Assembly (NCBI RefSeq): GCF_021538615.1
Contig: NZ_JAJHIZ010000002.1
Location: 1-64,000 of the forward strand
Origin: Niabella agricola
GTDB taxonomy: Bacteria > Bacteroidota > Bacteroidia > Chitinophagales > Chitinophagaceae
DNA length: 64,000 bases
Reading direction: 5' to 3'
Every line of letters starts with the position of its first letter. Within the stretch, counting starts at the first letter, position 1. Below, piece after piece: positions 45,161 through 46,311 of the stretch. The notes beneath the pieces are model-generated. The model worked only from the letters and a program-made list of their open reading frames with translations. It was not told the DNA's origin and searched no databases. Made by a program: the position numbers and the translations under genes.

Positions 45161-45202
45161 CTGAATGCTGATAACTTAAATCTCGAATCTCAAATCTCAA
45201 AA
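45161..45202 (+). repeat. Heptamer tract, six units, immediately before moxR
   Basis: Six exact 7-base units of CT-type, including CTGAATG, CTTAAAT and CTCAAAT. It ends 5 bases before the moxR ATG, so it covers the ribosome-binding region. Confidence 0.8.
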
Positions 45203-45207
45203 ATATT

Positions 45208-46209
45208 ATGGCAAAAACAGGAGAAGAAATAAGGCAGCTAAATGAGCGGATCGTTGGGGCTGGTTATTTTGTAGACGCCTTGCGCAAAGAGATCGGTCAG
45301 GTTATTGTGGGGCAGCATCATATGCTGGATCGCTTATTGATCGGGCTGCTAAGCAACGGGCATGTGTTGCTGGAAGGGGTTCCCGGGCTGGCAAAGACGC
45401 TTACGATCAAATCCCTCGCCACTGCCATACAGGCCGGCTTTAACCGCATTCAATTTACGCCGGATTTGCTGCCGGCTGATGTAATCGGAACACTGATCTA
45501 CAACCAGCAGCAAAATGAATTTGTAGTGCGCAAAGGGCCGATTTTTGCAAACTTTATCCTTGCAGATGAAATCAACCGGGCACCCGCCAAAGTACAATCA
45601 GCCTTATTGGAGGCGATGCAGGAACGGCAGGTTACGATCGGAGATCATACATACAAACTGGACGATCCCTTCCTGGTACTGGCTACTCAGAATCCGTTGG
45701 AGCAGGAGGGTACCTACCCGCTGCCCGAGGCCCAGGTAGACCGCTTTATTATGAAGGTGATTGTTCGCTACCCCGAAATGCAGGAAGAACAGCTCATTTT
45801 AAGGTATAATGTTCAGGGCGAGCAGCCGCCGCCGATCCGGCCGGTTGTGAATATTCAGGAAATATTGGATGCCAAGAACCTGGTGCGTGAAATATACCTC
45901 GATGAAAAAGTGGAACGGTATATCCTGGATATTGTGTTTGCTACCCGTTATCCGGGACGCTACCAGCTGGAAAAATTAACGCCCCTGATCTCATATGGTG
46001 CATCGCCGCGCGGAAGTATTAATCTGGCGCTTGCAGGAAAGGCACAGGCATTTTTAAATAAACGCGGGTTTGTGATCCCCGAGGATATCCGAAGTGTGGT
46101 GTATGATGTGTTGCGGCACCGGATCGGGCTTACCTATGAGGCAGAAGCCGAGAATATAGCTGCAGAAAATATTATTGACGAAGTACTGAAAGCGGTGAAT
46201 GTGCCGTAG
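45208..46209 (+). CDS. MoxR-family AAA+ ATPase
   Basis: A 333-residue AAA+ protein. Walker A is G-V-P-G-L-A-K-T; Walker B is F-I-L-A-D-E-I-N-R-A-P-A-K; sensor I is in A-T-Q-N-P; and E-G-T-Y-P-L-P-E-A-Q-x-D-R-F is a MoxR hallmark. MoxR ATPases act as chaperones for proteins with von Willebrand (VWA) domains, which matches the two downstream genes. It is the first gene of the moxR-DUF58-BatD-like-batA cluster. Its start abuts a heptamer tract. Confidence 0.93.
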   Translation: MAKTGEEIRQLNERIVGAGYFVDALRKEIGQVIVGQHHMLDRLLIGLLSNGHVLLEGVPGLAKTLTIKSLATAIQAGFNRIQFTPDLLPADVIGTLIYNQQQNEFVVRKGPIFANFILADEINRAPAKVQSALLEAMQERQVTIGDHTYKLDDPFLVLATQNPLEQEGTYPLPEAQVDRFIMKVIVRYPEMQEEQLILRYNVQGEQPPPIRPVVNIQEILDAKNLVREIYLDEKVERYILDIVFATRYPGRYQLEKLTPLISYGASPRGSINLALAGKAQAFLNKRGFVIPEDIRSVVYDVLRHRIGLTYEAEAENIAAENIIDEVLKAVNVP

Positions 46210-46214
46210 GAGGG

Positions 46215-46242
46215 AATAGTGAGAAGTTAAGTTATAGTTAAT
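46215..46242 (+). repeat. Heptamer tract (AATAGTG type)
   Basis: Four 7-base units including AATAGTG and AAGTTAT. It is 5 bases after the moxR stop and is followed by the CT-type tract at 46249. Confidence 0.45.
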
Positions 46243-46248
46243 GGATGT

Positions 46249-46311
46249 CTGGAGGCTAAAGACTGAACGCTGAACGCTCAGTGCTGATAGCTCAAATCTC
46301 ATATCTCAAAA
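46249..46311 (+). repeat. Heptamer tract, nine units, before the DUF58 gene
   Basis: Nine exact 7-base units of CT-type with no slip, including CTGAACG (twice), CTGATAG and CTCAAAT. It is the longest uninterrupted tract of the family here and ends 8 bases before the TTG start of the next gene. Confidence 0.85.

Follow-up and report, generated by a model that had tools for sequence, protein, structure and literature searches.

The window, the whole stretch of 64,000 nucleotides of the Niabella agricola genome that was analysed, carries arrays of seven-base units between its genes. Two of them flank a gene that we take to encode a MoxR-family ATPase, and one of these separates it from a downstream gene that presumably encodes a DUF58 protein. 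The features discussed below are the following.

6590-6648, plus strand: weak period-7 array (AGAAATG) between two plus-strand genes, present also in the relative G005
27099-27167, plus strand: period-7 array between convergent genes; the position is not periodic in the relatives G005 and G009
32516-32586, minus strand: detected block, period-7 array with CTGAAAG/CTAAACG words on the minus strand
39780-39848, plus strand: period-7/21 array with CCTTAAAC/TTGAAC words, preceding an ATG near 39847
40977-41122, plus strand: detected block of two opposed short period-7 arrays, TTCAGC-type and then GCTGA-type
45153-45220, plus strand: detected block of a one-armed period-7 array upstream of the MoxR-family gene, with the units themselves at 45161-45202 and CTCAAAT/CTGAATG words
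45208-46209, plus strand: putative MoxR-family ATPase gene with arrays on both sides, the anchor of our survey of the phylum
46236-46320, plus strand: one-armed period-7 array at the MoxR-DUF58 junction, with units at 46249-46311
52669-52788, minus strand: inverted pair of period-7 arrays, an ORF-less hairpin between two minus-strand genes
60541-60605, no strand assigned: detected block, period-7 array within the junction 60423-60606, at which relatives carry an S23 gene

The array upstream of the MoxR-family gene is composed of six units at 45161-45202 (CTGAATG, CTGATAA, CTTAAAT, CTCGAAT, CTCAAAT, CTCAAAA), the last of which lies 5 bases before the start codon at 45208. Nine consecutive units at 46249-46311 (CTGGAGG, CTAAAGA, CTGAACG, CTGAACG, CTCAGTG, CTGATAG, CTCAAAT, CTCATAT, CTCAAAA), each starting with CT, form the array at the MoxR-DUF58 junction. 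The coordinates and unit numbers of both runs agree with an earlier note on this DNA, and all six of the further tracts that it listed, at 27101, 32517, 39794, 41081, 52692 and 60551, were detected. The CT-type vocabulary that it ascribed to the tracts holds for the CT-initial units of the two main ones, but other word families are present elsewhere. At lag 7, 66 start positions of the window have at least 26 of 42 matches, compared with two at lag 8 and none at lags 5, 6, 9, 10 and 11. The harmonic lags 14 and 21 have 36 and 7 such positions. Lags 20, 22 and 23 have 1, 6 and 17, which belong at least partly to a separate period-23 repeat at 53554.

The segment 52662-52777, which contains the inverted pair, folds with an energy of -46.4 kcal/mol and an RNA z-score of -7.0 relative to 200 shuffles. 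The opposed arms at 40977-41122 pair in the minimum free energy structure with a z-score of just -0.59, and the array 60541-60605 alone has a weak fold (z = -0.95). The arrays at 45161-45202 (z = +1.0) and 46249-46311 (z = +0.06) do not fold.

The abundance of the arrays was determined in 564 kb of the 6.26 Mb genome, comprising the 64-kb window and 500 kb more. Genes were called by a simple codon model, which yielded 486 genes and 86% coding sequence, and the 320 intergenic regions of at least 60 bases were scored against dinucleotide shuffles. Autocorrelation at lag 7 exceeds the 99.9th percentile of the shuffles in 43 of the 320 regions (13.4%); the corresponding share is 3.4% for period 14 and 0-1.6% for periods 4-6 and 8-13. 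Similar tracts are thus present elsewhere in the genome, as the earlier note had anticipated: one fixed threshold applied to the 564 kb delimits 107 period-7 blocks, 71 of them intergenic, and 8, 16, 8, 0, 3 and 0 intergenic blocks at periods 5, 6, 8, 9, 10 and 11. Extrapolation from 47 of 305 bounded regions gives about 500 arrays genome-wide. Their words, grouped by eye, form the families CTCAAAT/CTGAACG, GTGAATA/GTTAATG, TTATCAG/TTTCAGC, CCTGGAAC/TTTAAAC/TTGAAC, and GATRCCAGACR. Both orientations and every gene arrangement are represented, convergent gaps and positions behind stop codons included, and many arrays stop within a few bases of a start codon. Elsewhere in the own-genome sample, arrays lie on both sides of two ORFs (L116, 4203-5912), which we take to encode ribosomal proteins S2 and S9.

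Array regions of this genome fold no better overall than other regions (228 short intergenic regions, p = 0.62); a z-score below -3 was reached by 9 of 37 regions with arrays and by about 13% of the 191 without. Two candidate markers of paired arms were rejected. The A-T skew by intergenic position gave a weak trend (Spearman 0.20, p = 0.13), and the orientation of a single EM motif had no association with position (p = 0.31); words of several families are combined in such a motif. Rho sites and Bacteroidota promoter motifs, suggested by their 7-nt spacing, were set aside because the arrays occur in both orientations.

A search with the MoxR-family protein identified Chitinophagaceae and other Bacteroidota as the closest named relatives, and 80 Bacteroidota loci were surveyed. 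The window is collinear with G005 and G009, with 83-90% identity in aligned blocks, and largely collinear with G014, G010 and G015. Several species have arrays at shared junctions (for example regions 31, 32, 35 and 40), with different words and unit numbers, and sister species can differ by whole units, as in the 21 extra bases of G009. The period-7 score of the junction corresponding to 45153-45220 is 0.33-0.60 in G005, G009, G014 and G010, 0.21-0.24 in G016, G007 and G011, and 0.04 in G015. Across the 80 loci, a period-7 array is present in 11 of 53 gaps of 25-200 bases that follow MoxR, as opposed to 19 of 391 other co-directional gaps (p = 2e-4). Among 562 gaps of these loci, the mean fold z-score is near -2.8 in the 46 with a period-7 score above 0.22 and -1.1 in the 484 with a score of at most 0.15. 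The difference is significant between gaps scoring above 0.27 and at most 0.15 (p = 6e-4), and is small within convergent gaps alone (-4.3 versus -3.8). Period 8 is strong in ten gaps, with a mean z-score of -4.0, and periods 5, 6 and 9 are strong in one, none and one.

In relatives, two of the window junctions are occupied by a gene of the S23/IVP family (PF05635). At the junction 60423-60606, an S23 gene lies between two arrays in G005 and G014; in G010 the gene, likewise between arrays, is in two pieces. The corresponding stretch of G015 was read as a truncated S23, which the HMM did not report. The S23 at this junction is antisense to both of its neighbours. Between MoxR and DUF58, G020 has a broken S23 gene, the arms of which pair at -40.3 kcal/mol; at a further locus (L011), an S23 gene that follows MoxR is cut off by the end of the contig. 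The genome of N. agricola contains 11 S23 matches, 9 of them over the cut-off, two of the matches being halves of one broken gene; the HMM found none in the window or in the 500-kb sample.

One own-genome S23 gene (L146 1483-1845, G000:C3:4440970-4441281) is located between the ATP synthase beta and epsilon genes, as named from their ORFs. The S23 stretch is matched in G010 and G004 and partly in G014. Nine of the twelve relatives examined have no S23 at this junction and a short foldback gap instead; in these nine gaps period 8 outscores periods 7 and 9, and the foldback was computed without a shuffled control. Other S23 genes are inserted between the genes for semialdehyde dehydrogenase and class-III aminotransferase (read as argC-argD), between those for the 30-kDa and 49-kDa subunits of NADH dehydrogenase, and between those for 2-oxoacid dehydrogenase acyltransferase and pyridine-nucleotide disulphide oxidoreductase. 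At argC-argD, the simplest elements have arms that take up the whole gaps, as in L257 with 24 bases, S23 and 24 bases; in others the gaps are longer. The left arm pairs with the right arm over 14-22 bases in the six full-length elements that were folded. Of the 21 argC-argD loci identified, L266 and L275 were excluded because of their length, and ten with short arms entered a duplex test, in which pairing of own and cross-species arms did not differ significantly (p = 0.125, n = 10). The similarity of array words follows S23 identity (Mantel r = 0.28, p = 5e-4, 51 loci). Recent mobility of the S23 elements was considered and rejected on the basis of 16 loci, since the most similar pairs share flanking genes; the most similar S23 genes, with similar arrays at orthologous junctions, are therefore inherited copies and not new arrivals.

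The flanks of S23 genes were compared systematically in 68 loci from the own genome, its family and its phylum, the family and phylum loci being the best-scoring ones, one per genome. The loci derive from L146-L215 (70 loci), from which L152 was dropped owing to its overlap with L150, and L164 was left out. Flanks of 260 bases were scored from the HMM core of S23 and, for controls, from near the called gene ends, and both kinds of flank include a few coding bases. Period 7 is present on both sides of S23 in 37 of the 68 loci and on either side in 47. Period 8 occurs on either side in ten loci, five of which have it on both, and period 7 or 8 occurs on both sides in 42 loci. The counts for periods 5, 6, 9, 10 and 11 on either side are 1, 2, 0, 0 and 0. 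Period 8 is a consistent minor variant of the arrays that also flanks S23 (L159, L188, L191, L203, L213 and others), and periods 5, 6 and 9-11 are no such variant.

Control genes from the 80 MoxR loci have period-7 arrays on both sides in 9 of 1,212 cases and on either side in 104. Among small control genes of 90-160 codons, 4 of 130 have an array on either side, and the single one that is flanked on both is an iron-sulphur protein gene. In a wider count over the own sample, relatives and other stretches, period 7 or 8 flanks both sides of 41 of 2,813 genes; most of the 41 are ordinary genes of operons, several being orthologues of a small number of genes, and one is an S23.

The two arms of an S23 locus are inverse complements. 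Inverted alignment of arms from the same locus scores 18.7, compared with 11.2 between loci (68 loci, p = 5e-12) and 11.9 for direct, non-inverted comparison, and the own partner is the best match in 20 of 68 loci. The arms of the 35 two-sided loci form duplexes of -32.9 kcal/mol with their own partners and -15.2 kcal/mol with arms of other loci (p = 6e-9), the own partner being the best in 20 of 35. The neighbours of S23 could be read in 65 of the 68 loci (excluding L189, L204 and L212). S23 is in sense between co-directional genes in 54 of these, antisense in 7 and between convergent genes in 4, whereas control gene triples are in sense in 688 of 1,211 cases (p = 1.5e-5).

The presence of arrays was also compared with that of S23. 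Sixteen genomes without an S23 match contain three period-7 and no period-8 arrays in 408 kb, and 20 S23-bearing genomes contain 45 period-7 and 17 period-8 arrays in 800 kb. The difference in array number by genome (Mann-Whitney p = 0.01) and the difference in the share of genomes that have any array, 11 of 20 versus 3 of 16 (p = 0.04), are both uncorrected for kinship. Periods 5, 6, 9, 10 and 11 together account for 4 blocks in the S23-less and 15 in the S23-bearing genomes. No array was found within 40 kb in nine of the 20 S23-bearing genomes, and six of these nine have at least five S23 matches; S23 is thus not sufficient for the arrays.

A search among plasmid proteins identified 25 records with S23, 23 of them cyanobacterial. 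Seventeen of the 25 loci were examined, 16 from cyanobacteria and one from Gemmatimonadota, leaving out H10, H13, H18 and H21-H25. Among periods 5-9 in the 160-base flanks, the top one is 7 in 13 of the 17 loci and 8 in the other 4, with best scores of 0.36-0.69 at four rows; the two sides are inverse-complementary as judged by eye. In a stricter 100-base test, 17 of 34 plasmid S23 ends pass at period 7 and one at period 8. Other gene ends of the same loci pass in 6 of 39 cases at period 7 and in none at period 8, so arrays are common in these plasmid loci in any case. The earlier note had likened the tracts to the heptanucleotide repeats of filamentous cyanobacteria, and the comparison is borne out by these cyanobacterial S23 genes with flanking arrays of the same kind. 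Three of the cyanobacterial plasmid loci have S23 with its arrays among CRISPR genes, in the order cas6-S23-cas4 twice and cas10-S23-cmr3, with period 8, once. The S23 genes between CRISPR genes are the following.

L241 1501-1869: S23 between CRISPR genes, with flanking arrays
L242 1501-1860: S23 between CRISPR genes, with flanking arrays
L252 1501-1857: S23 between CRISPR genes, with flanking arrays

The comparisons with known systems draw on extracts of the cited articles. The closest resemblance is to the intervening sequence (IVS) of 23S rRNA, in which inverted arms form a stem and an S23 ORF lies in sense in the loop (PMC4990558). At the S23 loci we likewise find inverted terminal arms with an S23 ORF between them, in most cases on the sense strand; the window itself has no S23, and its only strong stem is at 52662-52777. 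The present elements differ from the IVS in that those with neighbours read lie between protein genes and not inside a 23S rRNA gene, their arms are periodic, and most copies are ORF-less. In Coxiella, the 23S IVS has a variable number of tandem heptamers directly before the S23p start codon, which the extract does not present as a general link, and is excised by RNase III (PMC4990558). The S23p of Xanthomonas is a pentamer (PMC4990558), and a Xanthomonas S23 structure is available (2gsc). A likeness of PF05635 to Avd, the accessory protein of diversity-generating retroelements (DGRs), is stated in PMC10053308; Avd belongs to the same superfamily as S23, and the match to its model NF033474 is 25 bits, below the cut-off of 80.

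Heptamer repeats are known from several bacteria (PMC4679880, PMC4692102, PMC6344855, PMC2700814). The present arrays share with the STRRs of filamentous cyanobacteria (Mazel 1990 as cited in PMC4692102), among them GGGGA(T/C)T arrays (PMC4692102), the tandem arrangement of heptanucleotides, the intergenic position and the use of several words per genome, and such arrays flank plasmid S23. The reported STRRs include long perfect arrays, whereas ours are degenerate. Direct repeats of TAACTGA occur in Beggiatoaceae, cyanobacteria and five Bacteroidetes, and are similarly positioned just upstream of start codons (PMC4679880). They consist of one exact word, whereas the present arrays have many, and the rotation CTGATAA occurs once, at 45168. 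Given these repeats, the statement of the earlier note that it knew of no such named family in Bacteroidota is only partly right. The GGGAATC repeats of Xanthomonas also form heptamer arrays, some in inverted pairs, with variable sequence between conserved genes, and differ in their G-quadruplex words (PMC4692102). The dispersed elements of Geobacter metallireducens, likened here by description, have four or five tandem heptanucleotides, one class being drawn as a strand-switching loop, and differ as proposed regulator sites for which the extract indicates no S23 link (PMC2700814). The term S23 does not occur in PMC4679880 or PMC4692102. Papers on Flavobacterium and on retroelements mention the S23 protein without linking it to repeats in the text available, and the Coxiella IVS was the only S23-heptamer link found in the accessible open-access literature.

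We propose, with a probability of roughly 0.6, that the tracts of the window are arms, mostly ORF-less, of intercistronic S23 elements that resemble the 23S rRNA IVS. The architecture of array, S23 and array, the complementarity of the arms, the mostly sense placement between co-directional genes, the long residence at junctions and the scarcity of arrays in genomes without S23 are observed. A complete element would consist of a period-7, or sometimes period-8, array, an S23/IVP gene and an inverse-complement array, and would lie between two genes of an operon, with S23 mostly in sense. In the polycistronic RNA, the two arrays, complementary as observed, could form a stem that carries the S23 ORF in its loop. 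By analogy with the IVS, the stem may be cut by RNase III, which would separate the upstream cistron, S23 and the downstream cistron. The pentameric S23 protein might bind the heptads, in cis or, on ORF-less copies, in trans. Single units are gained, lost and exchanged at a fixed junction, as seen among the relatives, with the period kept and the words changing.

The usual form in the N. agricola genome is a single arm, or a pair of arms with no ORF between them. We assign the S23-less arrays of the window to the same kind because of their shared period, their words resembling those of L150, the S23 genes at two of their junctions in relatives, and the pattern of presence and absence. Compared by 6-mers with 47 S23 loci, 5 of 10 window arrays, including the 45161 and 46249 tracts, come closest to the own-genome locus L150; the words of all own arrays are not significantly more similar to own than to foreign S23 loci (p = 0.19). 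Counting against the proposal are the ratio of 11 S23 matches, or 9 over the cut-off, to some 500 extrapolated arrays, the one-armed and unfolded state of 45161-45202 and 46249-46311, and the lack of S23 in the window and the 500-kb sample. The same holds for the array regions of this genome that fold no better overall, the non-significant word comparison and argC-argD duplex test, the S23-bearing genomes without arrays, the descent of similar elements at orthologous junctions, the arrays at other gene ends of the cyanobacterial loci, and the own-genome arrays in which variable columns are adjacent no more often than expected.

Plain replication slippage would explain the period without S23: a polymerase slipping by about 7 nt would generate arrays in non-coding DNA, which would decay by point mutation, and S23 would be merely tolerated there or drawn to them. 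Heptamers are the most abundant repeat class in most repeat-rich genomes, and a 7-nt polymerase footprint has been proposed (both Mrazek 2007, as reported in PMC4679880 and PMC4692102); the whole-unit differences between sister species fit as well. Slippage does not predict inverse-complement arms around one gene family, their sense orientation, or the scarcity of arrays in S23-less genomes. It also predicts neither of two results on the divergence of the units. The variance of column identity is 0.0831 in 74 S23-adjacent arrays and 0.0887 in 39 own-genome arrays, above the maxima of 0.0712 and 0.0765 in 200 simulations of uniform divergence each. We consider this explanation unlikely. In 42 of the 74 S23 arrays (24.7 expected, p = 3e-5), the two columns with the greatest variation lie next to each other; in own-genome arrays this is so in 13 of 39, the expected frequency. 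The heptads of S23 arrays thus have roughly five fixed and two free positions. A microsatellite would have near-identical units or decay uniformly, and here some columns diverge more than others; the view of the earlier note that the tracts are not ordinary microsatellites is supported by this column structure, by the inverted arms and by the association with S23. The inverted pairing, the S23 link and the recurrence across the phylum go beyond that note.

The heptad could instead be bound by an abundant RNA-binding protein of the host (S1, Csp or CsrA-like) that acts on translation of the next gene, S23 being unrelated. Regulation of this kind was proposed by MacGregor for the TAACTGA repeats (PMC4679880). 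The many arrays that end close to a start codon suit this idea, whereas their occurrence in either orientation, in convergent gaps and behind stop codons does not, and it leaves S23 unexplained; we regard it as improbable. Least probable is a REP/MITE-like foldback element that is unrelated to S23 and moved by a transposase in trans, since the arrays, dispersed, intergenic and partly in inverted pairs as they are, have no conserved ends, core word or palindromic core that could be seen by eye, their words vary between junctions and species, and S23 copies with similar arrays occupy conserved junctions.

More broadly, we speculate that the intergenic heptamer repeats of Bacteroidota and filamentous cyanobacteria, and perhaps of Xanthomonas, Beggiatoaceae and Geobacter, are one system, although we hold this to be doubtful as a whole. 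The repeats would be binding and processing sites of pentameric S23, a protein that would act in cis and in trans to punctuate polycistronic RNAs at the junctions of operon genes. The period of 7 nt would be set by the spacing of S23 subunits on nucleic acid, and the 23S rRNA IVS would be copies inserted into rRNA. This may connect two long-standing puzzles of bacterial genomes, the heptamer repeats and the S23 gene, which is best known from insertions in ribosomal RNA. Since arrays and S23 coincide in the loci examined, binding of S23 to the heptads and processing of the array stem become directly testable questions. Heptamer repeats, S23 and the 23S IVS were already known; new here are the location of an IVS-like element outside rRNA and the periodicity of its arms, and we found no earlier paper in the accessible open-access literature that joins intergenic S23 with heptamer arrays.

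Two further observations concern junctions of the window. The approximately 110 bases before the gene at 41299 (41190-41298) show strong conservation in G005, G009 and G015, unlike the arrays immediately before them; the conserved segment contains a GTGGAAAATATTTTT-like motif that is also present in more distant relatives. The orthologues of 39719-39801 in G009 and G015 (L129-L130, L140-L141) contain an inserted repeat of 200-300 bases (GCAGATTTGGTATCGGCTTTAACGGCAACAATGTCG...), apparently inserted twice in G009, which may be an unrelated MITE-type element.
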